Positions 6,466-60,130 of a stretch of DNA of 64,000 bases are shown here, one piece after another. A program made the translations under genes and the position numbers. Origin of the DNA: Siphonodentalium dalli (lineage: Eukaryota; Mollusca; Scaphopoda; Gadilida; Siphonodentaliidae); contig CP136061.1 in assembly GCA_032622095.1 (NCBI GenBank), forward strand, positions 256,753,582 to 256,817,581. Direction: 5' to 3'. The notes beneath the pieces were generated by a model. The model made no database searches. It was not told where the DNA came from and was given only the letters and a program-made list of their open reading frames with translations. Every line of letters begins with the position of its first letter. Positions within the stretch are counted from its first letter, which is position 1.

Positions 6466-7755
6466 CTACTGCGTCGATTTGGTGTGATTCCTCTTGTGTA
6501 AACTCAAGGTTTCCGAATGCCGAAATGTTTTTTGACAAATACCACATTTATACGGACGATCACCTGTGTGGATTCTTTTATGCCTCGTTAGGTGGCTCGG
6601 TTGATTAAACGCTTTCTCACATATGTCGCAATGGTATTGGCGATCACCGGTGTGTATCCTCTTGTGAGCAGTCAAGTTTCCAGATCGACCGAACGATTGT
6701 TCACAGATATCACATTGATATGGGCGGTCCCCGGAGTGTATTCGCTTATGTGCCGTCAGGGCGCCTGATTTGATAAATGCTTTACCACAAATATCACATT
6801 CATACGGTCGCTCACCAGTGTGTATTCTCTTATGTTTCGTTAGGTCGCTTCGATCAGTAAATGATTTCTCACATATATCGCATTGATATGGGCGCTCACC
6901 AGAGTGGATTCTTTTATGTCCTGTCAGGTCGCTTGACCGAATAAATGCCTTCCCACAAATCTCGCACTGATACGGGCGATCCCCGTTGTGGATCCTTATA
7001 TGTATCGCCAGGTGGTTTGATACAGTGAATGCTTTCCCACATATATCACATTGGTACCGGCGATCACGAGTGTGTGTCCTTTTGTGAGCAGTCAACAATC
7101 CCGATTGACTGAATGATCGCTCACACAAATCACATTGATATGAGCGGTCTCTGGTGTGAATCATCTTATGCGTCACCAAGTTGCTTGAATTATTAAATGA
7201 TGTCCCACATATATCACATTGGTATGGTCGTTCACCGGTGTGAATTATCCTATGTGTCACCAAGTTGTTTGATGCATTAAATGATTTCCCACATATATCA
7301 CATTGGTATGGTCGTTCACCGGTGTGAATTCTCTTATGTATCACCAAGTTGCTTGATTTAGAATATGATGCCCCACATATATCGCATTGATATGGCTTGT
7401 CTCTGTTGTGAATCCTCTTGTGTTCAGTCAAACATTTCACTTCAGTGAACGTTCTTTGACATATATCACATTGGTATGGTCGATCACTAGAGTGGATTCT
7501 TTCATGACTAGTCAGAGTAGTTGCACGGGTGAATGCTTTACCACATATATCGCATCCATACGGTTTGTCTCCGGAGTGAGTAATGTTATGACTCGTCAGA
7601 GTACCTGACTGTCTAAATGCTTTCCCGCATATATTACATTCATACGGCTTGTCTCCGGTGTGAATTCGTCTATGATTCGTCAGAGTACATGCATGGTTGA
7701 ATGCTTTCCCGCATATATCGCAAGTATAAGGTCGATCTCGGGTATGGGTCTGCAT
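6466..7755 (-). CDS. C2H2 zinc-finger protein with 15 tandem fingers
   Basis: The ORF encodes 429 residues from the first in-frame ATG at 7755; the frame stays open a little further upstream, to a TTG at 7800. It is almost entirely C2H2 fingers of the form C-x2-C-x12-H-x3-H joined by TGDRPY/TGERPY linkers, about 28 residues each. I count 15, all with complete zinc ligands. This architecture is typical of sequence-specific nuclear DNA-binding factors. There is no KRAB, BTB, SCAN or ZAD domain in the ORF. Such a domain could lie on an unseen 5' exon, since the first finger begins only about 10 residues after the ATG. The gene lies in copy 1 of a segmental duplication. Its relative at 14504-15513 is broken, so this is the surviving copy. 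Expression and DNA target are unknown. Confidence 0.85.
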   Translation of the reverse strand: MQTHTRDRPYTCDICGKAFNHACTLTNHRRIHTGDKPYECNICGKAFRQSGTLTSHNITHSGDKPYGCDICGKAFTRATTLTSHERIHSSDRPYQCDICQRTFTEVKCLTEHKRIHNRDKPYQCDICGASYSKSSNLVIHKRIHTGERPYQCDICGKSFNASNNLVTHRIIHTGERPYQCDICGTSFNNSSNLVTHKMIHTRDRSYQCDLCERSFSQSGLLTAHKRTHTRDRRYQCDICGKAFTVSNHLAIHIRIHNGDRPYQCEICGKAFIRSSDLTGHKRIHSGERPYQCDICEKSFTDRSDLTKHKRIHTGERPYECDICGKAFIKSGALTAHKRIHSGDRPYQCDICEQSFGRSGNLTAHKRIHTGDRQYHCDICEKAFNQPSHLTRHKRIHTGDRPYKCGICQKTFRHSETLSLHKRNHTKSTQ

Positions 7756-14503: not shown

Positions 14504-15513
<1,010 letters not shown>

Positions 15514-40518: not shown

Positions 40519-40524
40519 GACGCG
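40519..40524 (+). repeat. Target-site duplication GACGCG, left copy
   Basis: It is identical to 47434-47439. The left satellite remnant ends CACCTTGT-GACGCG and the right remnant begins GACGCG-CTCTTTAC. Together they form one ordinary monomer. Confidence 0.9.
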
Positions 40525-40790
40525 AGTAGTATTGGCCGTCACTCTGGCCCACCCCCTGCTCGTCGTCACTCTGGCCCATGGGCCAGAGTAACGACGAGCG
40601 AGGGGGTGGGCCAGAGTGACAGCCCATGGGCCAGAGTGTCAGACCCAGAACATTAGTAAATTGTGCAACTTTACCAGTGCATTTTTAACAAAAGCGAAAG
40701 TCTTCGAATAAATTCGAAGACGATAGCGTTGTAAAATGCACTTGCAGAAGTTACCTTTCAGTGAAATATGTTATGAGATAATGGTAAAAA
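40525..40790 (+). repeat. Left terminal inverted repeat of the Polinton-like element
   Basis: It pairs with about 46925-47433. It contains several copies of ACTCTGGCCCA/TGGGCCAGAGT, including a near-perfect palindrome at about 40558-40601 centred on CCCATGGG. An inner block follows around the palindrome GTCTTCGAATAAATTCGAAG and the word TTAACAAAAGCG. Repeated short palindromic words at transposon ends are plausible binding sites for an integrase or terminal protein (inference). Confidence 0.85.
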
Positions 40791-40852
40791 TGGTACAGAT
40801 AAAATTTTCCCCGAGTCAAATCGGTGTTTTATTCATAGAAATATGATGTTTT

Positions 40853-40945
40853 TGACAAAAAAGAAACACATCTGATTTGACGTTCGGAGAAATTTGGTGA
40901 AATACGCATGACGTCGTCAACGAGGCCCGCGCATCCCATATACTT
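40853..40945 (+). promoter_or_regulatory. Shared promoter module P1
   Basis: The ordered words GAAACACA, TTGACGTTCGG, AAATTTGGTGAAATA, ATGACGTCGTCA and a GC-rich GCCCGCGC followed by CATATA recur in P2 (both arms) and P4. P1 lies about 65 bp before the ATG at 41009. The TGACGTC core is CRE-like (CREB/ATF family), and CATATA is TATA-like. Function is inferred from position and conservation. Confidence 0.65.
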
Positions 40946-41008
40946 GATCCTCGAAAACTGTTAACGTCATTAGATGCGTAAATTGTAACGTTAGCGTTAT
41001 TTTGAAAC

Positions 41009-41323
41009 ATGGATCCAGTAACGGAATTTCTCAAGACTATTGATGTACAGTACGATCATGTTCCTGCAACAACGCAAATGTCGACTCCACTGTATGCAGG
41101 AAATGTGACGCCACGGGTAGAACAGCAACAGGTACCAATGGTGTATCCGCGAACGGATCAACAACCAGTGTATACACCGCCGGTGAAAACACAACAAATG
41201 ACTCAACCTGTTATATACCAAGTTATCAACAGTTCACAATGGGAAGAACAGACAAAATTGTTACGGAATATTTGGCAGGAAATGAAGGATTTACGAACGA
41301 AAATTAACACAACAACCGACTGA
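41009..41323 (+). CDS. Unknown element ORF 1 (104 aa, Gln/Pro/Thr rich)
   Basis: The ATG lies just downstream of promoter module P1. The protein begins MDPVTEFLK. Residues 20-75 are rich in Gln, Pro, Thr, Tyr and Val, and look disordered. It ends with a short helical, coiled-coil-like segment (EEQTKLLRNIWQEMKDLRTK). I do not recognise a family. It overlaps, in the +1 frame, the start of the next frame (open from about 41310), so the two may be parts of one gene split by a frameshift. Small virion or accessory proteins are common in related elements, but that is only context. Confidence 0.5.
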   Translation: MDPVTEFLKTIDVQYDHVPATTQMSTPLYAGNVTPRVEQQQVPMVYPRTDQQPVYTPPVKTQQMTQPVIYQVINSSQWEEQTKLLRNIWQEMKDLRTKINTTTD

Positions 41324-41336
41324 ATGTACAATCAAC

Positions 41337-41588
41337 TTGAAACCTCACACGATTGACATGCCAATTGAGGTACATGGTTTCCAGAAAGAACCTACAAAGC
41401 GAGCAACATTTGGATCACTCGGGAAAGATTTAACAGTGATGAAGAAATTCACAAAAGATACTCTCTGTATTATGCTATATGATGATCGTATTGTAGATAT
41501 GAAGGGTGGTAGTGGGGTTTTTTTTATTGTTAGGGAAGTATTCTTTGATAAATTATGTGAACATTCTCTCCAAGTTCATGATGTATGA
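41337..41588 (+). pseudogene. Unknown element ORF 2, probable continuation of ORF 1
   Basis: The frame is open from about 41310 without its own ATG (the first start-like codon is TTG at 41337), so it probably continues ORF 1 after a +1 shift. It contains FGSLGKDLTVMKKFTKDTL and LYDDRIVDMKGG, then deteriorates after a T-rich run near 41517. A 27-bp segment (ATTATGTGAACATTCTCTCC onward) is duplicated at 41553 and 41606, consistent with decay. No family is recognised. Confidence 0.4.
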
Positions 41589-41690
41589 ATTTGGTTTTGA
41601 AGAAATTATGTGAACATTATCTCCAAGTTCAGGAAGAATGAACAAATTGTACAGTAGCAATTTCAGAGCGTATCTTTTAAAAAAATTGTG

Positions 41691-41706
41691 AGCCCTGAAA
41701 AGGGCC
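41691..41706 (-). terminator. Histone-type 3' stem-loop SL1
   Basis: On the minus strand it reads GGCCCTTTTCAGGGCT: a 6-bp stem (one G-U pair) with a TTTC loop. It starts 13 nt after the stop of the OTU-like frame. AAAAC precedes it. About 15 nt downstream is AAAAGATACGCTCTGAAATT, which is also found after SL2. This matches the metazoan histone mRNA stem-loop layout. Confidence 0.75.
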
Positions 41707-41719
41707 GTTTTGGATGGTT

Positions 41720-42087
41720 TCAAAACAAACCGCACGATGTGTTTGGGTTTGAATACAGCTGAAAGTTGTCTTGGGAACGTCGCAACCAAATGGCACAATT
41801 GCATGGCTGGCCTGTCTGTATCCCCCAGAGCGGCAAGAATTCGTAAACTCTATGCCCTGAGAAGATTATGATAGGCCGCTGTAGTGATGTAGCCGCAAGT
41901 CGCACCATCAATCTTGATGTCCCCAACAATCTGGTGTGTCGGAACCACCGTGGTGGCAGTCCAAACACCCGATCTCTGTTTCTGCTAAACTCAAAGCCTT
42001 CCATAGCATCTGTGGTTCATCCCCAAACACACCTCGCACCAGCATCCCATCCTCCAAATAGCTCCGATACAGATCTCGGTAATCCAT
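41720..42087 (-). pseudogene. OTU-like ORF, copy 1, frameshifted
   Basis: From the ATG at 42087 the frame begins MDYRDLYRSYLEDG and contains FGDEPQMLWKALSLAE, which resembles the catalytic-cysteine region of OTU peptidases (GDG-C-x-[FW]-x-A-L-S). It lacks the cysteine. After a frame change between about 41990 and 41945 the similarity continues with LLGTSRLMVRLAATSLQR. Near its end SQDNFQL sits where OTU proteins have the catalytic His (N-H-[FY]). The ORF at 46436-46846 is a diverged relative. OTU enzymes remove ubiquitin; with both catalytic positions gone, a non-enzymatic or dead role is likelier. Fold similarity is judged by eye only. Confidence 0.5.
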
Positions 42088-42131
42088 TTCGGTATGAATG
42101 AAGAATGGGAATATCTGGGGTTTTTTTATTG

Positions 42132-42305
42132 AAAACGCGCGGGCGCCGATGACGACGTCATTGCATATTTCACCAAATTTTCCCGAACGTCAAAACAAGT
42201 GTGATTCTTTTTGTTAAAAGAAACACACTTGAATTGACGTTCGGGAAAATTTGGTGAAATATGCGATGACGTCGTCAGCGGCGTCCGCGCGTTTCATATA
42301 ATATG
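42132..42305. promoter_or_regulatory. Bidirectional palindromic promoter P2
   Basis: Two copies of the shared module are arranged head to head as an imperfect inverted repeat with arms of about 80 bp. The left arm (reading minus) has GCAATGACGTCGTCATC; the right arm (reading plus) has TGACGTTCGGGAAAATTTGG and GATGACGTCGTCAG followed by CGCGCGTTTCATATA. The left side faces the OTU-like frame at 42087. The right side faces the ORF at 42337, about 35 bp downstream of CATATA. Confidence 0.7.
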
Positions 42306-42336
42306 GAGCGCAGTGTATCGTTTTTTTATCTTCAAA

Positions 42337-42687
42337 ATGTTCTCTAAACTAAAAGAGAAAATTTTGCTAAAATTATCTGCCGATGCTCGATTAAAGCATT
42401 GGCAGAAGAATGTTAGAGATCGGAGAGCCATACGATAACCATTAGAGCTGGAGTTCAATAATTCCTGCAAAGACGGAGACCCAGTCCTCCCAAGGTGTAT
42501 GTGGAAACTCAGAGTGGAACCCTACGTATAAGGAGGGGAATTATATCCAGATTTGTCTGAATTTAATCCTCCAAGACCACTGCCAAGGTGGATTACCACT
42601 GAGGCAGCGAAATACGTGCGGAATCCATACTGAAGACCCACATACAACAAGGGTGGACTTTATCCTGATTTGTCTGAATTTTATTGA
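42337..42687 (+). pseudogene. Unknown element ORF with in-frame stops
   Basis: The ATG lies 35-40 bp after the P2 TATA-like box. The frame encodes 33 residues (MFSKLKEKILLKLSADARLK...) to a TAA at 42436. The same frame then continues with protein-like sequence through two more stops to the TGA at 42685. It contains a repeated motif (GGELYPDLSEF, later GGLYPDLSEF) and LPRWITTEAAKYVRNPY. Frame retention plus the repeated motif argues that this was one coding sequence damaged by substitutions. It ends 19 nt before stem-loop SL2. No family is recognised. Confidence 0.55.
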
Positions 42688-42706
42688 CTCGGCAAACAAT
42701 TTAAAC

Positions 42707-42722
42707 GGCCCTTTTCAGGGCC
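42707..42722 (+). terminator. Histone-type 3' stem-loop SL2 (perfect)
   Basis: GGCCCTTTTCAGGGCC forms a perfect 6-bp stem with a TTTC loop, preceded by AAAC and followed by ACCCA. This is the consensus layout of metazoan replication-dependent histone mRNA 3' ends. The downstream block AAAAGATACGCTCTGAAATT is shared with SL1 and could serve as a histone-downstream element for U7 snRNP (inference). Confidence 0.85.
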
Positions 42723-42822
42723 ACCCAAATTTTTCAAAAGATACGCTCTGAAATTTCTAAAAAACGTAACAAGTAATTAAATCAATAATATTTTATTCAC
42801 CATTTTTAACTTTCTTGGAAGA

Positions 42823-43377
42823 TTATCGCGATAAACGTCTTTTTCTCTTTCTGGTAGGCAAAGTGGTCTGCTTAATTTCAGTATCGTTAGCGCTTTTGGC
42901 TACAGCATTTATCACTTCCATCTGCGAATCCTCCGTGTTTAGAATAGTGATTTCATCATTTGATACCTCGGTTGAGGCGTATAATTCACCACACTCAGTT
43001 TTCACATCCGCGATCTCGTTAATTGACATCGCGGTTGAGTTCCATTGTTCCCCAATTTCAGCTTTCATATCCGCTATCTCATTAGTTAATGTCTCAGTTT
43101 GATTAATGTCCATTACATCACATGGTGTGAGATAATCGTTGTCTGATGTGCGCGTCCAAGTAGACTTCCCAGGAGTAGATTCACTCAGCGTCAACGATGA
43201 TTTTTTCATCTGATCAATCTTCTTTTTCGGAGTGCCATAACATTGAAAAGCCCAATGTGAACTCGAGTTGCACCTAAAACAGTTACCGTATGGTGGTATC
43301 CACTTTGTATTCTTTAAAACTTCTAATGCAAATTTTCGTAAATGTTGTATGTTGTTACTCTGCAATCGTGGATCCAT
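42823..43377 (-). CDS. Zinc-knuckle protein of the element (184 aa)
   Basis: The start ATG at 43377 abuts the divergent promoter P3. Residues 33-46 are CFRCNSSSHWAFQC, an exact C-x2-C-x4-H-x4-C zinc knuckle, the single-stranded nucleic-acid-binding motif of Gag and CNBP-type proteins. The middle is acidic and Ser/Thr rich, with three related segments containing NEIADMK, NEIADVK and NDEITIL, suggesting internal duplication or a coiled region. The C-terminus is strongly basic (RKRKRRLSR), a likely nuclear-localisation signal. The frame is intact. It is transcribed opposite the polymerase, as replication genes often are. It may bind DNA or RNA during replication or packaging; that is inference. 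Confidence 0.6.
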   Translation of the reverse strand: MDPRLQSNNIQHLRKFALEVLKNTKWIPPYGNCFRCNSSSHWAFQCYGTPKKKIDQMKKSSLTLSESTPGKSTWTRTSDNDYLTPCDVMDINQTETLTNEIADMKAEIGEQWNSTAMSINEIADVKTECGELYASTEVSNDEITILNTEDSQMEVINAVAKSANDTEIKQTTLPTRKRKRRLSR

Positions 43378-43383
43378 TGTGAG

Positions 43384-43528
43384 CGTTCGGTGCGTTATTC
43401 AGTCGTCAGTGAAATGACGACGTGATGAAAAAGCGCGTCGCTTTTATGCTCTGACACGGACGATGACTGCGCATGTCCGTGTCAGAACATAAAAGCGACG
43501 TGATTTTTCATTACGTCGTCATTTCACG
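43384..43528. promoter_or_regulatory. Bidirectional palindromic promoter P3
   Basis: 43409-43462 and 43475-43527 are near-perfect inverted copies: GTGAAATGACGACGTGAT against ATTACGTCGTCATTTCAC, with CGTCGCTTTTATG against CATAAAAGCGACG. The loop is about 12 bp. The arms start right at the divergent ATGs at 43377 (zinc knuckle) and 43529 (polymerase). The central words differ from the P1/P2/P4 module, so this may be a separate temporal class. Confidence 0.7.
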
Positions 43529-43705
43529 ATGAAGCGCCTTGTGCCATATTCAGATAGCGAAAGCGAACGAGATAATAGAAAGAGAGTGCGACTGGATGAT
43601 GACTGTAAATATTATACTATACAAAATCTGACCGATAAATACTCGAGGAAATTTAAAACAGCATCAAAGAAATACAACGTTACATTTCAAGAATTTCATC
43701 AACCA

Positions 43706-43799
43706 TTGGTCCTGCATCACACTCATCTTTCAAACTGTTCACCAGATCTTTGAAAATTCTGTGAACAGTTTGAAAGATGAGTGTGATGCAGGACCAAAA
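43706..43799. repeat. 37-bp perfect inverted repeat inside the polymerase gene
   Basis: 43706-43742 (starting TTGGTCCTGCATCACACTCA) is the exact reverse complement of 43763-43799. The spacer is 20 bp. The right arm fits the polymerase reading frame, and the left arm looks like an inverted copy of it. The pattern is typical of a template-switch mutation. Confidence 0.85.
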
Positions 43800-45507
43800 G
43801 ATCAAATGAGAATTTCCATCTTTCATCCAGGGCTAGATCTAGGGATTCACGTCCCATTCACTGAAGCAAAAGACCTGACGGGTGAATTATTGCTTGACAA
43901 CATAGAAAAAGTTGCACAATCGAACAAAAAATTCAAAATTCATGACGGACAGATGACATTTGATATCACTGTCACGCATATGCATACAGGGACCGCAAGA
44001 CATACCTTACATTATGGAGCATTCGGTGAAAAAAATCAAATGAAAACAGTAAAGATAAGTATTCTTCTGATTCAGAACGCAGAAGATAACATGTGTTTTG
44101 CGAGGGCTGTCGTTGTTGGTATGTGTAATGCTGACAAAAAAGATACGCTGAATGGAAGCAACAATGGAAACGGATTACGAGACCAGCAAGAGCTCCACAA
44201 CGGGAAGCTGCAAAGTCATTGTTGGATAAAGTGGGGTTATCACACGACACCAGTTGCGGGGTTGAGGAATACAAAATTATTCATGAACATCTATATCCGG
44301 AGTATGTTATAAAAATACATAATCAATTTGCTGACAACGGCTTTATTTTTCAACCACCACCAGTTGGGAAAGAAAGTAAAGTTATCCATCTATATTTTAA
44401 TGACAACCACTACGATGTGATCACAACTGTCACAGGATTCCTTGGATGTGAGTATTACTGTGAACACTGTAATGTCGGTTCGAGCCACAGAGGTGACCAT
44501 TTATGTCCATGCAAGTGTATGTGTTTCGAGGGTCAGATATGTCCCTTTGAACGATGGTTACACTGCATCAAATGTAAGAGGACTTTTAGAAGTAAACGAT
44601 GTCTCGACAATCATTTGAAAAAATCACCAAAGCAAGACAAAACTATTTGTGATATGATACACAAATGCCAGAAATGTGGGGTTGAAATCGTCACACGAAA
44701 GGAGAAAAGACATATCTGTTCGGGAACAAAGAAGTGTAAATACTGTAAGGAAATCGTCACATCAGGTCACAGATGTCATATCCAACAGTACCAAAAGAGA
44801 GAAATACAGCAAGGAGTAAAGGTACCATTCATATATTTTGATTTTGAATGTCAACAAGATACTGGTATTCATATACCCAATTTTTGTGTTGCACAAACTG
44901 CTTGTGAAAATTGTATATGTAAACCCGTTGATGAAATATGCATATCATGTGATTCTGTATTGTCAAACAGAGAATATGTTTTTAAAGGTGAGAATGTATT
45001 GGAAAGATTTTGCAAATGGTTGTTTTACACCAACGACCATAAAGGTACAACATGTATTGCTCACAATGCAAGAGGTTACGATAGTCAGTTCCTCTTACAT
45101 TACTTGGTGAACAATGGAAATTCAAAACCTAATGTTATTATGAATGGTAACAAAATAGTGAGTTTACAATGTAATGGTGTTAGAGTAATCGATTCATTGA
45201 GTTTCATCCCAATGGCATTATCTAAATTTCCAAAAACATTCCAACTTGAAGAAATGGCTAAAGGTTATTTTCCACATTGGGCAAATACACAGGACTTTCA
45301 GAATTACGTAGGACCATATCTAGACAAAAAATACTATAAACCTGAAATCATGTCTGAGGAAAATAGGACTTCATTTCTCAAATGGTACGAAGTTGAGGGT
45401 GGGGATATTTTTGATTTCAAAAAAGAAATTCAAGAGTATTGTAAATCAGATGTAGACATTTTAAGACGTGGATGTGGCAAATTCAGACTATGTGTAATGG
45501 AAACTGA

Positions 45508-46050
45508 TCAAATAGATCTTCAGCATATAGCGAACTTCAGCATATACTAGACAAATCATCCTACCTCTGTTCATTGTATGGTCTGGTGGGTGCAAAAGAT
45601 CAGTTACCACACGAGAAACCTCATCTTGTAAAAGCATACATAGTAAATACACATACGTCAGAAAAACCAGGAGAACACTGGGTTGCAATTGTCTTCAATG
45701 GGAACATTGCAACATATTTCGATTCGTTTGGGATACCAGTTATTGATAAATATATCAAATCATTTTTTCAAAGAAATTCGATCGAATGTAAAATAAACGT
45801 TGGGCGGTTTCAACATCACGGTACAAACGTATGTGGTATCTACTGCATATTTGCTTTACATTTCTTGAAAAGCGGATATGGTATAAAAGTATTAGTTGAA
45901 ATGAATTTTGATGGTGATTACTTCAAACATGATAGAAAAGTATTTGACTGGTTTCATAGAAACTATGAACCCTTACGAAGAGAATCAGAAACATTACCCA
46001 AAACATGTATTTCACAAACTTGTAAGACTTACTGTGAATTTCAGTGTTGA
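45508..46050 (+). CDS. Adenovirus-type cysteine protease of the element
   Basis: The frame is open from 45508; it has no ATG before the conserved region and its first start-like codon is a TTG at 45574. This family processes virion proteins in adenoviruses and Polintons. Family landmarks appear in order: GAKDQLP near the start, GEHWVAI with the catalytic His, TYFDSFG with the acidic residue, FQHHGTNVCGIYC with the oxyanion Gln and the nucleophile Cys. The catalytic set is therefore complete and the domain is full length. It has no start codon of its own and follows directly on the exonuclease frame, so translation is doubtful now. It probably fused in frame to the exonuclease after the palm was deleted. 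Confidence 0.85.
   Translation, partial: SNRSSAYSELQHILDKSSYLCSLYGLVGAKDQLPHEKPHLVKAYIVNTHTSEKPGEHWVAIVFNGNIATYFDSFGIPVIDKYIKSFFQRNSIECKINVGRFQHHGTNVCGIYCIFALHFLKSGYGIKVLVEMNFDGDYFKHDRKVFDWFHRNYEPLRRESETLPKTCISQTCKTYCEFQC
45519..45546 (+). repeat. 17-bp tandem duplication between polymerase and protease frames
   Basis: TTCAGCATATA occurs at 45519-45529 and again at 45536-45546, a 17-bp shift. Seventeen is not a multiple of three, and this step accounts exactly for the frame difference between the exonuclease ORF and the protease ORF. It also creates the stop at 45548. Confidence 0.75.
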
Positions 46051-46230
46051 TAAAATGTGTTCATTACCAATTGTTTAAACATGTTAAAATCATAATCAAT
46101 TGTAAATATGTTGATTGTTAATGATGAAATGTATTACCAAATGTAAATTATGTTCATTGCATTACCAGTTATTGATTGTAAATATGATAATTTCATGATC
46201 AGTTGTAAATATGTTGATTCTTAATTTAAA

Positions 46231-46236
46231 AATAAA
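46231..46236 (+). terminator. Poly(A) signal AATAAA for the polymerase/protease unit
   Basis: This is a canonical AATAAA 181 bp after the protease stop, in AT-rich sequence, followed by a TG-rich stretch (GTTATGTTGTTG). No histone-type stem-loop is found after this unit. Confidence 0.5.
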
Positions 46237-46310
46237 AGTTATGTTGTTGAAAAACAGTGTCTGTTTTTAATGATCGTCTTCGGCAATGTTGATGAAGATC
46301 TTAATTCACC

Positions 46311-46405
46311 AAAAAAGAAACACATTTGAAATGACGTTCGGGAAATTTGGTAGAAAAACACAATGACGTCGCTAATGACGTCCGCGCGTTTTACATATAA
46401 CAAAA
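46311..46405 (+). promoter_or_regulatory. Shared promoter module P4
   Basis: It carries the same ordered words as P1 and P2: GAAACACATTTGAAATGACG, TTCGGGAAATTTGG, CAATGACGTCG, then TGACGTCCGCGCG and ACATATA. The OTU-like ATG at 46436 follows about 35 bp after the TATA-like word, the same spacing as P2 to 42337. Confidence 0.7.
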
Positions 46406-46435
46406 CCCCATTTAGAGTATATAATTTTCTCCACG

Positions 46436-46846
46436 ATGGAATACCCTAAAACTGATCTCGGATCTTATGTCAGAGCCATCCGTGTATCGGCCCCGAGGGA
46501 CATTACGGTGTGGGAGACCCTTTCCTGGGCAGTCTATGGTACAGGTGAAAAGTTCTTTGAATTATTCACTTTTGTCAATGCAACTTGGGCTCGCAATCCT
46601 ACACTGTTCAGTGGACAGGAGACAGAGAACATCGAATGGCTTGGGACAACAGGTGTCTTGCTTAAGGTGGCGGCAACCCTTCTGCAGAGAAAGCTCGTGT
46701 TTTGGAGACATAAGAAGGATCCGGAGTACAGATTAGACGTACCTCCATTGAAGGGTGTGAGTATACCGCAAGGTATATTTCACCTCTCATCGAGGGTTCG
46801 CTTGTATTTCGGGAGTTGGATCAAGAGGATGGATTTGAGTTCCTAA
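46436..46846 (+). CDS. OTU-like ORF, copy 2 (136 aa, intact frame)
   Basis: It begins MEYPKTDLGSYVRAI. Residues 22-35, DITVWETLSWAVYG, resemble the OTU N-terminal helix, but the catalytic Cys position is not Cys. GTTGVLLKVAATLLQRKLVF (about residues 73-92) matches the second OTU block and closely parallels LLGTSRLMVRLAATSLQR of the minus-strand copy at 41720-42087. The C-terminal HxY/HxF motif is not found. The protein is shorter than a typical OTU domain (about 130-150 residues) but comparable. A structural, ubiquitin-binding or capsid-associated role is possible; none is shown. It is driven by module P4 and followed 40 nt later by SL3. Confidence concerns the ORF being real; the OTU relationship is weaker. 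Confidence 0.6.
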   Translation: MEYPKTDLGSYVRAIRVSAPRDITVWETLSWAVYGTGEKFFELFTFVNATWARNPTLFSGQETENIEWLGTTGVLLKVAATLLQRKLVFWRHKKDPEYRLDVPPLKGVSIPQGIFHLSSRVRLYFGSWIKRMDLSS

Positions 46847-46885
46847 AGACCCCTTATCCACCTTTCTTGTGATCTAACGTAAAAC

Positions 46886-46901
46886 GGCCCTTTTCAGAAC
46901 C
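46886..46901 (+). terminator. Histone-type 3' stem-loop SL3 (two mismatches)
   Basis: GGCCCTTTTCAGAACC has the same loop and flanks as SL2 (AAAAC before, ACCCA after). The 3' half of the stem carries AA in place of GG, leaving two C-A mismatches. It looks like a decayed copy of the same signal. Confidence 0.65.
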
Positions 46902-46924
46902 ACCCAAAACCTGCTATCAGATGA

Positions 46925-47433
46925 CTCTTACATGCACATTTTCACAGCGCTAGCGTCTTCGAATTTATTCGAAGACTTTCGCTTTTGTTAAAATATGCAC
47001 TGGTAAAGTAGCATAATTTACCAACACATCTATTTTTTCTCGGATTCTAAGTTCAATGTGTACATCGAAGGGGAGCGCCCTTCGCTTACCACACTGGCAT
47101 TAGAATCCGAGAAAAAATCGATACATTGGTAAATTGTGCTCTTTTCTGTCAAAAAAACCCTTCGAAGCGCTCACCTTAATCTTTGGAATATAACATAACC
47201 TCTGGACAGACCCTGGGCGGGACACTCTGGTCTCACCCCATTTGCTGTCGGACACTCTGGCCCATGTGCAAGAGTGTCCGACCCAGGTATTTTCTGGCCC
47301 ACCTCAGTTCTGGGTCTGACACTCTGGCCCATGGGCTGTCACTCTGGCTCAACCCTCGCTCGTCGTCACTCTGGCCCTTGGGCCATAGTGACGACGAGCA
47401 GGGGGGTGGGCCAGAGTGACGGTCAATGCTACT
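46925..47433 (-). repeat. Right terminal inverted repeat of the Polinton-like element
   Basis: It is the inverse of 40525-40790, with the same ACTCTGGCCCA words and the same TTCGAATTTATTCGAA palindrome. It is about 250 bp longer, because extra sequence (about 47030-47290) has no partner on the left. That extra part includes a hairpin (TTTTTTCTCGGATTCTA near 47035 against TAGAATCCGAGAAAAAA near 47101). Confidence 0.8.
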
Positions 47434-47439
47434 GACGCG
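47434..47439 (+). repeat. Target-site duplication GACGCG, right copy
   Basis: It is identical to 40519-40524 and continues directly into a satellite monomer. Confidence 0.9.
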
Positions 47440-50400
47440 CTCTTTACTTTATAATTACCATTCGTATATACATGTACATGCTACGATCAGAATGACACAT
47501 TGTGGTGCGCTCTTTACTTTATAATTACCATTCGTATATACATGTACATGCTACGATCAGAATGACACATTGTGATACTCTCTTTGCTTTATAATTACCA
47601 TTCGTATATACATGTACATGCTACGATCAGAATGTTACATTGCGATGCGATCTTTACTTTATAATTACCATTCGTATATACATATACATGATACGATCAG
47701 AATGCCACATTGTGATACTCTCTGCACTTTACAATTACCATTCGTATATACATGTACATGCTACGATTAGAATGACACCTTGTTTATAATTATCATTCGT
47801 ATATACATGTACATACTACGATCATAATGTTACATTGCGATGCGATCTTTACTCTATGTTTACCATTCGTATATACATGTACATGCTACTATCATAATGA
47901 CACATTGTGATACTCTCTTTACTTTATAATCACCATTCGTATATACATGGACATGCTACGATCAGAATGTTACATTGTGATGCGCTATTTGCTTTATACT
48001 TATCATTCGTATATACATGTACATGCTACGATCAGAATGACACCTTTTTTATAATTATCATTATTATAAACATGTACATGCTACGATCAGAATGACAGCT
48101 TGTTTATAATTATCATTATTATAAACAAGTACATGCTACGATCAGAATGACACCTTGTTTATAATTATTATACGTATATACATGTACATGCTACGATCAG
48201 AATTTCACACTGTGATACTCACTTTACTTTATAATTACCATTCGTATATACATGTACATGCTACGATCAGAATGGCACACGGTGATACTCTCTTTACTTT
48301 ATAATTACCATTCGTATATACATGTACATGCTACGATCAGAATGGCACATTGTGGTGCGCTCTTTACTTTACAATTACCATTCGTATATACATGCTACGA
48401 TCAGAATGGCACATTGTGATACTCTCTTTACTTTATAATTACCATTCGTATATACATGTACATACTACGATCAGAATGTTACATTGTGACGCGCTCATTA
48501 CATTATAATTACCATTCGTATATACATGTACATGCTGCGATCAGAATGGCATATTGTGATACTCTCTTTAACTTATTTATAATTACCATTCGTATATAAA
48601 TGTACATGCTACCATCAGAATGGCATATTATGATGCGCTCTTTACTTTATAATTACCATTCGTATATACATGTACATGCTACGATCAGAATGGTACATTG
48701 TGATACACTCTTTGCTTTATAATTACCATTCGTATATACATGTACATGCTACGATCAGAATGACACATTGTGATGCTCTCTTTACTTTATAATTACCATT
48801 CGTATATACATGTACATGCTACGATCAGAATGGTACATTGTGATACTCTCTTTGCTTTACAATTACCATTCGTATATACATGTACATGCTACGATCAGAA
48901 TGACACATTGTGATGCTCTCTTTAATTTATAATTACCATTAGTATATACATGTACATGATACGATCAGAATGGGACAGTGTGATACTCTCTTTACTTTAT
49001 AATTACCATTCGTATATACATGTACATGCTACGATCAGAATGCACATTGTGATACGCTCTTTACTTTATAATTATCATTCGTGTATACATGTACATGCTG
49101 CGATCAGAATGGTACATTGTGATACTCTCTTTGCTTTATAATTACCATTCGTATATACATGTACATGCTGCGATCAGAATGGTACATTTTGATACTCTCT
49201 TTGCTTTATAATTACCATTCGTATATACATGTACATGCTACGATCAGAATGGCACATTGTGATGCGCTCTTTACTTTATAATTACCATTCGTATATACAT
49301 GTACATGCTACGATCAGAGTGACACATTGTGATGCGCTCTTTACTTTACAATTACCATTCGTATATACATGTACATGCTACGATCAGAATGGCACATTGT
49401 GATACTCTCTTTACTGTATAAATGCCATTCGTATATACATGTACATGCTACGATCAGAATGGCACATTGTGATACTCTCTTTAGTTTATAATTACCATTC
49501 GTATATACATGTACATGCTACGGTCAGAATGGTACATGTGATACTCTCTTTGCTTTATAATTATCATTCGTATATACATGTACATGCTACGATCAGAATG
49601 ACACATTGTGATGCGCTCTTTACTTTATAATTACCATTCGTATATACATGTACGTGCTACGATCAGAATGACACATTGTGATACTCTCTTTACTTTATAC
49701 TTACAATTCGTATATATACATGTACATGGTACGATCGGAATTGCACATTGTGATGCGCTCTTTGCTTTATAATTATCTTTCGTATATACATGTACATGCT
49801 ATGATCATAATCTTTCAGTGTGATGCGCTCTTTACATTATAATTATCATTCGTATATACATGTACATGCTATGATAAGAATGGTACAGTGCGATTCGCTC
49901 TTTGCTTTATAATTACCATTCGTATATATACATGTACATGCTATGATAAGAATGGCACAGTGTGATGAGCTCTTTGCTTTATAATTACCATTCGTATATA
50001 CATGTACATGCTACGATAAGAATGGTACAGTGTGATAGCTCTTTACATTATAATTATCATTCGTATATACAGGTACATGCTATGATCCGAATGGTACAGT
50101 GTGATGTGCTCTTTGCTTTATAATTATCATTCGTATATACATGTACATGCTACGATCGGAATGGCACATTGTGATGCGCTCTTTGCTTTATAATTATCAT
50201 TCGTATATACATGTACATGCTATGATCAGAATGGTTCAGTGTGATGCGCTCTTTACATTATAATTATCATTCGTATATACATGTACATGCTACGATCAGA
50301 ATGGTACAGTGTGATGCGCTCTTTGCTTTATAATTATTATTCGTATATATACATGTACATGCTATGATACGAATGGGACAATGTGATGAGCTCTTTGCTT

Positions 50401-51590
50401 TATACTTACCATTCGTATATACATGTACATGCTACGATCGGAATGGCACATTGTGATGCGCTCTTTGCTTTATAATTATCATTCGTATATACATGTACAT
50501 GCTATGATCAGAATGGTTCAGTGTGATGCGCTCTTTACTTTATAATTATCATTCGTATATATATACATGTACAGTCTATGATAATAATGGCACATTGTGA
50601 TGCGCTCTTTGCTTTATAATTATCATTCGTATATATATATATACATGTACATGCTATGATAAGAATGGTACAGTGTGATGAGCTCTTTGATTTATACTTA
50701 CCATTCGTATATACATGTACATGCTACGATCGGAATGGCACATTGTGATGCGATCTTTGCTTTATAATTATCATTCGTATATACATGTACATGCTATGAT
50801 CCGAATGGTACAGTGTTATGCGCTGTTTACTTTATAATTATCATTCGTATATACATCTACATTCTATGATAATAATGGTACATTGTGATGCGCTCTTTGC
50901 ATTATACTTATCATTCGTATATATATACATGTACATGCTATGATAATAATGGTACAGTGTGATGAGCTCTTTGCTTTACACTTACCATTCGTATATACAT
51001 GTACATGCTACGATCGGAATGGCACATTGTGATGCGCTCTTTGCTTTATAATTATCATTCGTATATACATGTACATGCTATGATCAGAATGGTTCAGTGT
51101 GATGCGCTCTTTACATTATAATTACCATTCGTATATACATGTACGTGCTATGATAAGAATGGTACAGTGCGATGCGCTCTTTACTTTATAATTATCATTC
51201 GTATATACATGTACAGTCTATGATAATAATGGCACATTGTGATGCGATCTTTGCTTTATAATTATCATTCGTATATACATGTACAGTCTATGATAATAAT
51301 GGCACATTGTGGTGCGCTCTTTGCTTTATAATTATCATTCGTATATATATACATGTACATGCTATGATAAGAATGGTACAGTGTGATGAGCTCTTTGCTT
51401 TATAATTACCATTCGTATATACATGTACATGCTACGATCGGAATGACAAGGTGATGCGATCTTTGCTTTATAATTGTCATTCGTATATACATGTACATGC
51501 TACGATCAGAATGTTATAGTTTGGTACGCTCGTTGCTTTATAGTTATCATTCATGTGTATCTGTACATGCTACGATTGTAATTGCACATT
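47440..51590 (+). repeat. 70-bp satellite array, right block (about 59 monomers)
   Basis: It has the same monomer as the left block. 48094-48440 repeats, nearly base for base, the unusual truncated monomers at 32139-32480 (GACAGCTTGTTTATAATTAT and a monomer lacking one ATGTAC). Beyond about 49.7 kb the monomers diverge (CAGTGTGATGCGCTCTTTGC types, extra TA units), as at the left margin. Edge divergence is typical of satellite borders. A short satellite piece reappears at about 51650-51690 beside a duplicated CCCGATTCTCGTCAATATCT. Confidence 0.95.
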
Positions 51591-58936: not shown

Positions 58937-58954
58937 TAAAGCACATGTAGACAT

Positions 58955-60130
58955 GTAGACTTGTGTAGGCACGATGTCAGTATTCTTTGTGGACATGCAG
59001 ACTTGTGTAGGCACGATGTCAGTATTCTTTGTAGACATGCAGACTTGTGTAGGCACGATGTCATTATTCTTTGTAGACATGCAGACTTGTGTAGGCACGA
59101 TGTCAGTATTCTTTGCAGACATGCAGACTTGTGTAGGCACGATGTCAGTATTCTTTGCAGACATGCAGACTTGTGTAGGCACGATGTAAGTATTCTTTGT
59201 AGACATGCAGACTTGTGTAGGCACGATGTCAGTATTCTTTGTAGACATGCAGACATGTGTAGGCACGATGTCAGTATTCTTTGTAGACATGCAGACTTGT
59301 GTAGGCACGATGTCAGTATTCTTTGTGGACATGCAGACTTGTGTAGGCACGATGTCAGTATTCTTTGTAGACATGCAGACCTGTGTAGGCACGATGTCAG
59401 TATTCTTTGTAGACATGCAGACTTGTGTAGGCACGATGTCAGTATTCTTTGTAGACATGCAGACTTGTGTAGGCACGATGTCAGTATTCTTTGTGGACAT
59501 GCAGACTTGTGTAGGCACGATGTCAGTATTCTTTGTAGACATGCAGACGTGTGTAGGCACGATGTCAGTATTTTTTGTAGACATGCAGACTTGTGTAGGC
59601 ACGATGTCAGTATTCTTTGTAGACATGCAGACTTGTGTAGGCACGATGTCAGTATTCTTTGCAGACATGCAGACTTGTGTAGGCACGATGTAAGTATTCT
59701 TTGTAGACATGCAGACTTGTGTAGGCACGATGTCAGTATTCTTTGTAGACATGCAGACTTGTGTAGGCACGATGTCAGTATTCTTTGTAGACATGCAGAC
59801 TTGTGTAGGCACGATGTCAGTATTCTTTGTAGACATGCAGACTTGTGTAGGCACGATGTCAGTATTCTTTGTAGACATGCAGACTTGTGTAGGCACGATG
59901 TCAGTATTCTTTGTAGACATGCATACTTGTGTATAGGCACGATGCCAGTATTCTTTGTAGACATGCATACTTGTGTATAGGCACGATGTCAGTATTCTTT
60001 GTAGACATGCAGACTTGTATAGGCACGATGTCAGTATTCTTTGTAGACATGCAGACGTGTGTAGGCACGATGTCAGTATTCTTTGTACACATGCAGACTT
60101 GTGTAGGCACGATGTCAGTATTCTTTGTTT
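58955..60130 (+). repeat. 42-bp minisatellite, about 28 copies
   Basis: The unit is ACTTGTGTAGGCACGATGTC + AGTATTCTTTGTAGACATGC + AG, with scattered substitutions and a few 44-bp units near 59930-59980. Because 42 is a multiple of three, long frames are open on both strands. They include a minus frame of over 400 codons with the 14-residue repeat CMSTKNTDIVPTQV. No start context, signal peptide or flanking coding sequence supports it as a gene. The array begins about 18 bp after the Harbinger-like MITE and lies upstream of the lectin gene. Confidence 0.9.

Follow-up and report, generated by a model that had tools for sequence, protein, structure and literature searches.

Can a mobile DNA element bring genes of its own under the 3′-end signal with which animal cells make their histone mRNAs? 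The question is raised by a 64,000-nucleotide (nt) stretch of the genome of the scaphopod mollusc Siphonodentalium dalli (assembly GCA_032622095.1, contig CP136061.1, positions 256,753,582 to 256,817,581; referred to here as the window), which holds a decayed copy of a Polinton/Maverick element. A first-pass annotation, made from the sequence alone, noticed three 16-nt hairpins of the histone type, each just after an open reading frame (ORF) of this element, and proposed that a virus-like transposon uses the host histone 3′-processing pathway for a class of its genes, thereby coupling their expression to S phase. As described in PMC7026596 and PMC6303110, SLBP sits on the histone stem-loop, the U7 small nuclear RNA (snRNA) pairs with a downstream element, and CPSF73 cuts between the two, with the main cleavage site 5 nt past the stem; PMC6303110 also argues for another nuclease, MBLAC1, and names histone mRNAs as the sole known protein-coding mRNAs of animals with a stem-loop end in place of poly(A).

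The comparisons reported here make it very probable that five small accessory genes of the element, termed a to e, form a class processed by the host histone 3′-end machinery, and the proposal of the first-pass annotation is supported to this extent. Genes a–e are non-histone genes with histone-type 3′ ends, and the case is carried, at the level of sequence, by the signals themselves, their placement, their restriction to one class of genes, their match to the ends of host H4 and H2B genes, the presence of an SLBP domain in the host and the recurrence of the signal in a divergent Polinton.

Stem-Loops in the Window

The three hairpins, SL1 to SL3 (Table 1), lie where the first-pass annotation had placed them, each sharing the strand of its preceding ORF, and the spacings given for SL1 and SL2 (13 and 19 nt from the stop codon) hold, although that of SL3 is 39 nt and not 40. 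SL2 has the sequence GGCCCTTTTCAGGGCC between the flanks AAAC and ACCCA, as had been claimed, and together with its downstream block it matches the Rfam family Histone3 with 38.0 bits against a gathering score of 34 (E 1.5e-7 for 64 kb and 4227 families). SL1 reaches 26.2 bits (E 0.0039), which is under the gathering score. SL3 gives no entry in the scan of the whole window, and a separate scan of its stretch gives 16.4 bits. Fold energies are −11.4 kcal/mol for SL2 and −8.8 kcal/mol for SL1, with 1 of 200 shuffles as good in each case; SL3 comes to −0.5 kcal/mol, and 106 of 200 shuffles equal it. The claim of three hairpins therefore stands for SL1 and SL2 and falls for SL3, which is unpaired at two stem positions and forms no hairpin here; its counterpart is intact in the sibling copies L016 and L033. 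The downstream block AAAAGATACGCTCTGAAATT is indeed common to SL1 and SL2. The sequence GGYYYTTTYCARRRCC has exactly two matches in the window against a first-order Markov expectation of 0.0004, and AAACGGCCCTTTTCAG has three against 3e-6. The signal in the window is real, though one of the three hairpins has lost its fold in this copy. The Rfam matches to microRNA families listed for the window were set aside; all of these are under their gathering scores, and many sit on palindromes of the element.

The Signal Across the Host Genome

In a search of the 2.23-Gb genome (nine contigs), the exact 21-mer GGCCCTTTTCAGGGCCACCCA, which joins the hairpin to ACCCA, has 688 copies (337 + 351), and the reversed control has none. 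Histone genes are among the carriers, the host H2B gene having this very 21-mer. Sampling was based on 100 listed sites of the 21-mer (81 on contig C1 and 19 on C2), from which eight 3-kb loci and twenty 10-kb regions were fetched, 26 of them distinct. All 26 contain element genes, and the first eight loci all align to the gene c end of the window copy. Histone coding sequence was found in none of the eight loci and none of the twenty regions, nor in the window, in keeping with the earlier statement that the element has no histone gene.

Across 29 pieces (L005–L033), 80 of 82 hairpins have a homologue of genes a–e no more than 150 nt before them on the same strand (queries being the open a–e proteins of L014, L026 and L033), and this is so in every one of the 29 pieces; for the remaining two, the edge of the piece is 44 nt away and cuts off the gene. 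For L013–L033, a same-strand frame open for at least 50 codons ends within 60 nt upstream of 59 of the 63 hairpins; for the opposite strand this holds in 10 of 63 cases, and for random positions in 1732 of 8400. Where the frame has at least 80 codons, the distance from stop to hairpin is mostly 19 nt (23 cases), 13 nt (10) or 22 nt (8), with the second hairpins of gene e at 47–53 nt. The counts of 63 and 82 leave out hairpins with fewer than five pairs or without AAAC, and the counts of 68 given below are limited to those that have an exact AAAC flank and at least three pairs; L005–L012 enter the 82 only (L005 and L007 overlap L013 and L014). Since these pieces were picked by their hairpins, they speak to hairpin placement and not to the frequency of hairpin-less gene copies.

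Two side observations concern individual copies. In L027 (G000:C1:272645000-272654999), gene d and its hairpin repeat every 5333 bp, and a piece of the element has apparently been tandemly amplified there; near the element copy of L017 lie two inverted tRNA matches (15-86 and 371-442; Rfam 66.5 bits each).

Two Gene Classes and Their Putative Promoters

A block of about 90 bp stands upstream of genes a, b, c and d in the window, its four copies being 81–90% identical in pairs, and it probably acts as their promoter; a separate, divergent palindromic region is the candidate promoter of the PolB and CCHC genes. The ORFs for the CCHC protein and the protease are followed by AATAAA. In a sibling of the window subfamily, represented by the separate pieces L026 and L033, hairpins follow genes a, b, c and d at 22, 13, 19 and 13 nt from the stop, and the first 250 nt past each of the other genes examined hold none; these are the PolB pieces, the CCHC gene, the pieces of the major capsid protein (MCP), the A32-type ATPase, the protease and an ORF (319-738) that we take to be capsid-like. 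In the second subfamily (L013, L014 and L017), hairpins follow genes a, b, c and e, and none follows the CCHC gene. Gene e ends in two tandem histone-type hairpins separated by the spacer AAAAACAAAAAC (L013:3741-3820 and L014:3448-3527, minus strand), in the second of which a stem change is compensated and the downstream block is the most histone-like of all.

Promoter cores of both subfamilies were taken from the accessory genes themselves, and in L013–L033 a hairpin lies within the next 1 kb for 46 of 46 cores (11 and 35 by subfamily). The subfamily-1 core has 99 matches in the genome and the control none. Selection by promoter makes a less biased test, because the other pieces were picked by hairpin. 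It covered C1 and the first 88.9 Mb of C2, the range in which hairpin places are listed, and yielded ten loci, that of the window included. All ten have a hairpin within 0.7 kb; at eight this is a listed exact hairpin, and at two it has another 3′ flank (L026 gene a and L047 gene b). The hairpin is on the same strand and downstream of the matching core at eight of the ten, and at C1:49328994 and C2:24620508 the listed hairpin lies across the core, in an arrangement like that of a divergent pair. Of the 13 promoter arms at these loci, nine have a hairpin of their own, the remaining four arms lying outside the fetched sequence.

The accessory promoters of both subfamilies retain AAACACA-like and ACGT-like words (in the window at 40850-40942, 42116-42301 and 46312-46403). 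AAACACA, which we take to resemble the histone H1 box, is missing from the host histone loci L034 and L042, and the accessory promoter has no similarity to these H4/H2B loci (best E 0.31).

Conservation of the Signal

Between nine gene contexts, a footprint of the size covered by SLBP (−5 to +5 around the stem-loop) is 77–100% identical, the stretch from 60 to 11 nt upstream is 14–58% identical, and the downstream stretch is 16–89% identical, the pair at 89% being genes a and c of one subfamily. Among the 68 AAAC-flanked instances, 52 are GGCCCTTTTCAGGGCC and seven are GGTCCTTTTCAGGACC, a compensated change; all six pairs are kept in 65 and at least five in 66, four being left in SL3 of the window and in one L018 copy. 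In 21 chosen sequences, 96% of the stem cells were paired, against 4–67% in slid register. In an Rfam scan of 12 of the 21 element pieces and two histone loci, 24 of the 38 element hairpins are at or over the Histone3 gathering score (34.6–42.6 bits), spread over 10 of the 12 pieces, and the two pieces without a match (L021 and L033) carry only the gene d hairpin. Hairpins that are absent or unconserved in relatives, which the first-pass annotation had named as a refutation of its proposal, were not what was found: all ten promoter-chosen loci have one, 80 of 82 hairpins are placed after a–e homologues, and L004, one of the two Polintons described below, has one too.

Host Histone Genes and Processing Factors

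A search of the genome with the H4 protein gave 150 scored matches, clustered mainly on C5, C8 and C9, and none of the 100 hairpins listed for C1 and C2 comes closer than 70 kb to an H4 gene among these matches. The stem-loop found as SL2 follows both genes in ten of ten fetched H4/H2B loci (nine from one C5 cluster and one from C8), where an ACCAA or ACCCA tail and then purine-rich blocks come after it; four host histone hairpins score 40.3–42.7 bits as Histone3. The blocks downstream of the element hairpins were compared with these host ends in 12 contexts, taking the best of four local matches and 300 shuffles each. The match to a histone downstream element was equalled by no more than 1 of 300 shuffles in seven of the 12, namely genes b and c of the window, b and c of subfamily 1, and a, b and the second e hairpin of subfamily 2.

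The RNA-binding domain of SLBP has two exon-like matches in the host, which at 60.6 and 31.4 bits both exceed the cut-off; the weaker one contains an internal stop. The 14 control genomes give no match. A U7 candidate that is repeated on C8 was rejected, as it lacks a 3′ hairpin of the U7 kind and pairs with the four host histone blocks no better than 14–88 of 200 shuffles do.

Relatives Outside the Host

When contigs of bacterial and archaeal genomes were scanned on the basis of PolB, two Polintons that look like contaminants turned up, L003 and L004. L004 (8.9 kb) encodes PolB, MCP, an integrase, a TATA-binding protein (TBP) and an ORF that is protease-like but matches no Pfam family, and it carries a Histone3 match of 35.8 bits 28 nt past a C2H2 zinc-finger gene. 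An MCP fragment of the L026/L033 sibling is 31% identical to the L004 MCP (70 bits). The L004 integrase is of the rve family, with a chromodomain-like match under the cut-off, and the TBP homologue (L004:7192-7695, minus strand; PF00352, E 1.2e-27) adjoins it. In IMG/VR, no relative was confirmed by stem-loop pattern, by single-sequence searches with gene d, PolB or the protease, or by PolB or MCP alignment. Its stem-loop matches, L001 and L002, were discarded as phage-like contigs, the match in L002 being antisense inside a phage-type polymerase ORF. A tblastn search of INPHARED found no relative.

Proposed Mechanism and Competing Explanations

The mechanism that we propose is as follows. A multi-copy Polinton/Maverick family, an adintovirus-like DNA virus or transposon, ends its small accessory genes a–e with a copy of the 3′ signal of the host's replication-dependent histone genes, made up of an SLBP-type stem-loop, a 5-nt tail at the would-be cleavage site and, in most contexts, a block like the histone downstream element. 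Genes a–e would stand under a promoter type specific to the element and the PolB and CCHC genes under another, with poly(A)-type signals lying after the CCHC and protease genes. We infer that SLBP binds the hairpin and the U7 small nuclear ribonucleoprotein (snRNP) brings about cleavage; the a–e mRNAs would then lack poly(A) and be made and kept mainly in S phase, and their coupling to S phase would have the benefit of limiting expression to cells that replicate DNA, when a replicating DNA element can profit. SLBP is plentiful in oocytes and early embryos, and these offer an alternative setting for a–e expression. The signal most likely originated from a host histone 3′ end and would then have spread among the genes of the element.

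A number of results weigh against this mechanism. The copies are kin, so the counts are not independent. Formal covariation of the stem is weak (two-sided change in one of six pairs of 21 chosen sequences, with 37 of 500 shuffles as high), because the stem barely varies. Of the 38 element hairpins scanned, 14 are under the Rfam threshold, and an exact promoter core lies within 1 kb upstream of only 45 of the 63 hairpins in L013–L033. The intact PolB gene of the second subfamily ends 13–59 nt from the piece edge and is excluded from the statement that core genes have no hairpin. Downstream blocks are weaker at gene c of subfamily 2 (3 of 300 shuffles), at L004 (12 of 300) and at gene a of subfamily 1 (28 of 300), and that of gene d is unlike the histone downstream element (at least 140 of 300 in two contexts). 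Host U7 snRNA was not found by an Rfam search whose controls were equally silent, and an Sm-site pattern for U7 gave 14 matches versus 31 in the control. L003 has no Histone3 match, leaving the signal in one of the two Polintons outside the host. Finally, AATAAA or ATTAAA stands near several hairpins: SL2 has one 54 nt farther on and SL1 one at a distance of about 160 nt, and others come 11 nt past the stop of subfamily-2 gene b (ahead of the hairpin) and 114 nt past the stop of the L004 gene.

Such signals bear on the alternative that survives best, in which the hairpin is not the sole end of the mRNA and acts as a stability or translation element in polyadenylated transcripts, or as one half of a dual 3′ end. 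Dual processing of this kind, at a stem-loop and at a downstream poly(A) site, is reported for H2A.X mRNA (PMC7807067), and in some element genes a poly(A)-type signal likewise lies close to the hairpin or past it, although H2A.X is itself a histone gene and the element genes are not. The missing histone-like element after gene d would also fit. However, most contexts tested do have this element, and at the histone position (7 of 12), and no AATAAA or ATTAAA lies within 250 nt of the stop of gene d in L033, of gene a in L026, or of genes a and c in L013, L014 and L017. We regard polyadenylated or dual ends as unlikely, while granting them some weight.

It is much less probable that the hairpins are functionless leftovers of a histone cluster that the element entered or copied from. 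The close match of hairpin and downstream block to host histone 3′ ends, which makes a histone origin of the signal likely, is what such capture would leave behind. Yet the 26 sampled regions and the window hold no histone coding sequence, and the listed hairpins are far from listed H4 genes; the first-pass annotation had named such remnants as a possible undoing of its proposal, and they were not found. The hairpins stand on the coding strand after five different element genes, in 80 of 82 cases, with only the SLBP-size footprint kept between genes; the core genes that were checked have no hairpin, and a divergent Polinton also has one.

Still less can be said for a palindrome acting at the DNA level, as a packaging, replication or recombination signal that happens to mimic the histone stem-loop. 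The element is rich in palindromes (e.g., 42126-42301 and 43409-43527), but asymmetric features recur (the AAAC flank, the loop, and a tail and downstream block present on one side only), the strand follows the gene, and the match to an RNA family is over threshold. Chance or an annotation artefact, for which nothing besides the decay of SL3 in the window speaks, is practically out of the question given 688 copies against none for the reversed control and two window matches against a Markov expectation of 0.0004.

The Polinton Copy in the Window

That the element is Polinton-like, as the first-pass annotation had it, is confirmed by terminal inverted repeats (TIRs), a 6-bp duplication, a PolB of family PF03175 and an adenain-like protease, the last under the Pfam cut-off (Table 1). 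The duplication, GACGCG, flanks the element at 40519-40524 and 47434-47439, and a 6-bp target duplication is a hallmark of Polinton/Maverick elements. The insertion site is a 70-bp satellite, about 26 kb of which is arrayed on both sides of the element (18404-40520 and 47433-51590).

Gene a has no hairpin in this copy because a 53-nt gap relative to L026 covers the hairpin-bearing part. Gene b is a paralogue of gene d: its fragment 41720-41929 aligns to gene d with a score of 54 (0 of 500 shuffles as high), and its N-terminal fragment with an unremarkable 27 (65 of 500). Among named NCBI matches, that of PolB to the clam Mercenaria mercenaria is best (54%, with 63% of the query covered), which points to a mollusc as host; unnamed matches score higher. 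By ORF and Pfam inspection neither an ATPase nor an MCP was recognised in the window copy; the sibling pieces L026/L033 have a Pox_A32 ATPase (PF04665, E 8e-8), a protease (E 0.003, under the Pfam cut-off) and, among the sibling pieces generally, PolB homologues are present. No Pfam family matched genes a–e. For gene d there is no database homologue at E 0.001 and no Pfam family at E 10, a b/d profile has no match in the PDB at E 10, and a single-sequence AlphaFold model of gene d is uninformative (pLDDT 37). A presumed likeness of b and d to OTU proteases is unsupported.

Table 1. Features of the Polinton/Maverick copy and its stem-loops (positions in the window)
Feature	Position	Strand	Remarks
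SL1	41691..41706	-	histone-type stem-loop, 13 nt past gene b stop; Histone3 26.2 bits; −8.8 kcal/mol
Block downstream of SL1	41659..41678	-	like host histone downstream element; score 25, 0/300 shuffles (best of four local matches)
SL2	42707..42722	+	histone-type stem-loop, 19 nt past gene c stop; 38.0 bits; −11.4 kcal/mol
Block downstream of SL2	42736..42755	+	like host histone downstream element; score 28, 1/300 shuffles (best of four)
SL3	46886..46901	+	decayed histone-type stem-loop past gene d; two pairs mismatched; intact in siblings
Polinton/Maverick copy	40525..47433	.	decayed, internally deleted; TIRs 92-93% alike; ends 5′-AGTAG...CTACT-3′
Left TIR	40525..40738	+	pieces 40525-40651 and 40653-40738
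Right TIR region	46937..47433	-	pieces 46937-47024 and 47307-47433
Putative accessory-gene promoter, before gene a	40850..40942	+	
Putative accessory-gene promoter, before gene b	42116..42212	-	
Putative accessory-gene promoter, before gene c	42216..42301	+	
Putative accessory-gene promoter, before gene d	46312..46403	+	
Putative divergent palindromic promoter region	43409..43527	.	separate; PolB and CCHC genes
Gene a	41009..41323	+	truncated frame; no hairpin in this copy; 53-nt gap vs L026
Gene b	41720..42087	-	broken frame; paralogue of gene d (family alignment of b/d)
Gene c	42337..42687	+	broken frame; open in siblings L023, L026
CCHC-type gene	42823..43377	-	other class; zf-CCHC_3 E 0.0077 (weak, under cut-off); no hairpin; AATAAA 42797-42792 (minus)
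PolB fragment	44135..45550	+	exonuclease part; PF03175 E 1.9e-15
Adenain-like protease	45508..46050	+	PF00770 E 0.0032, under cut-off; AATAAA 46231-46236; no hairpin
Gene d	46436..46846	+	no Pfam family

In the PolB start region of the window copy lies a perfect 37-bp inverted repeat with an 18-nt spacer (43706-43797), which is apparently absent from the L026 translation of the PolB start, judged by reading and not by alignment. Elsewhere in the window, 84-bp repeat units at 6466-7755 and 14573-15437 resemble a C2H2 zinc-finger array, by reading of the repeat only, and a 42-bp repeat, present 28 times with 96% matches, occupies 58946-60128 with both strands open.

Relation to Known Systems and Implications

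With the metazoan histone 3′ end (RF00032; SLBP, U7 snRNP, FLASH and CPSF73) the element shares the same 16-nt stem-loop, an A-rich 5′ flank ending in C, an ACCCA-type 3′ flank in most genes and, in most contexts, an equally spaced purine-rich block downstream; it differs in that the carriers are accessory genes of a mobile element, not histones, with a promoter unlike those at L034 and L042. With Polintons/Mavericks and adintoviruses (Preplasmiviricota) it has in common PolB (PF03175), an A32-type ATPase, an MCP relative, the adenain-like protease noted above, TIRs and the 6-bp duplication. To our knowledge, no Polinton or adintovirus has been known to end its genes with the histone stem-loop. 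Searches of open-access full texts found no description of histone stem-loop or SLBP use by Polintons, transposons or viruses, though one may exist elsewhere; in the excerpt of PMC11071296, the only histone-related subject is the histone-like proteins of adomaviruses and tailtomaviruses, and no histone stem-loop on Polintons is mentioned.

Several consequences can be envisioned if the proposed mechanism is true. Genes a–e would be the first class of protein-coding genes outside the histones with the metazoan histone 3′ end, and a mobile element would break the rule that stem-loop mRNA ends belong to histones only. They would offer a natural test of the signal away from histones, with respect to timing, location in nuclear bodies, PABP-free translation and decay at the end of S phase. 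In practical terms, a histone stem-loop match that lies away from histone clusters can belong to a gene of a mobile element, and RNA-seq with poly(A) selection may overlook such mRNAs. On a broader scale, we think it rather likely that animal Polintons or adintoviruses of more than one lineage possess an accessory regulon with a shared promoter and poly(A)-minus mRNAs made through SLBP and U7, and that they read S phase via their 3′ ends; this would be a new route by which a DNA virus or transposon senses the DNA replication of its host.

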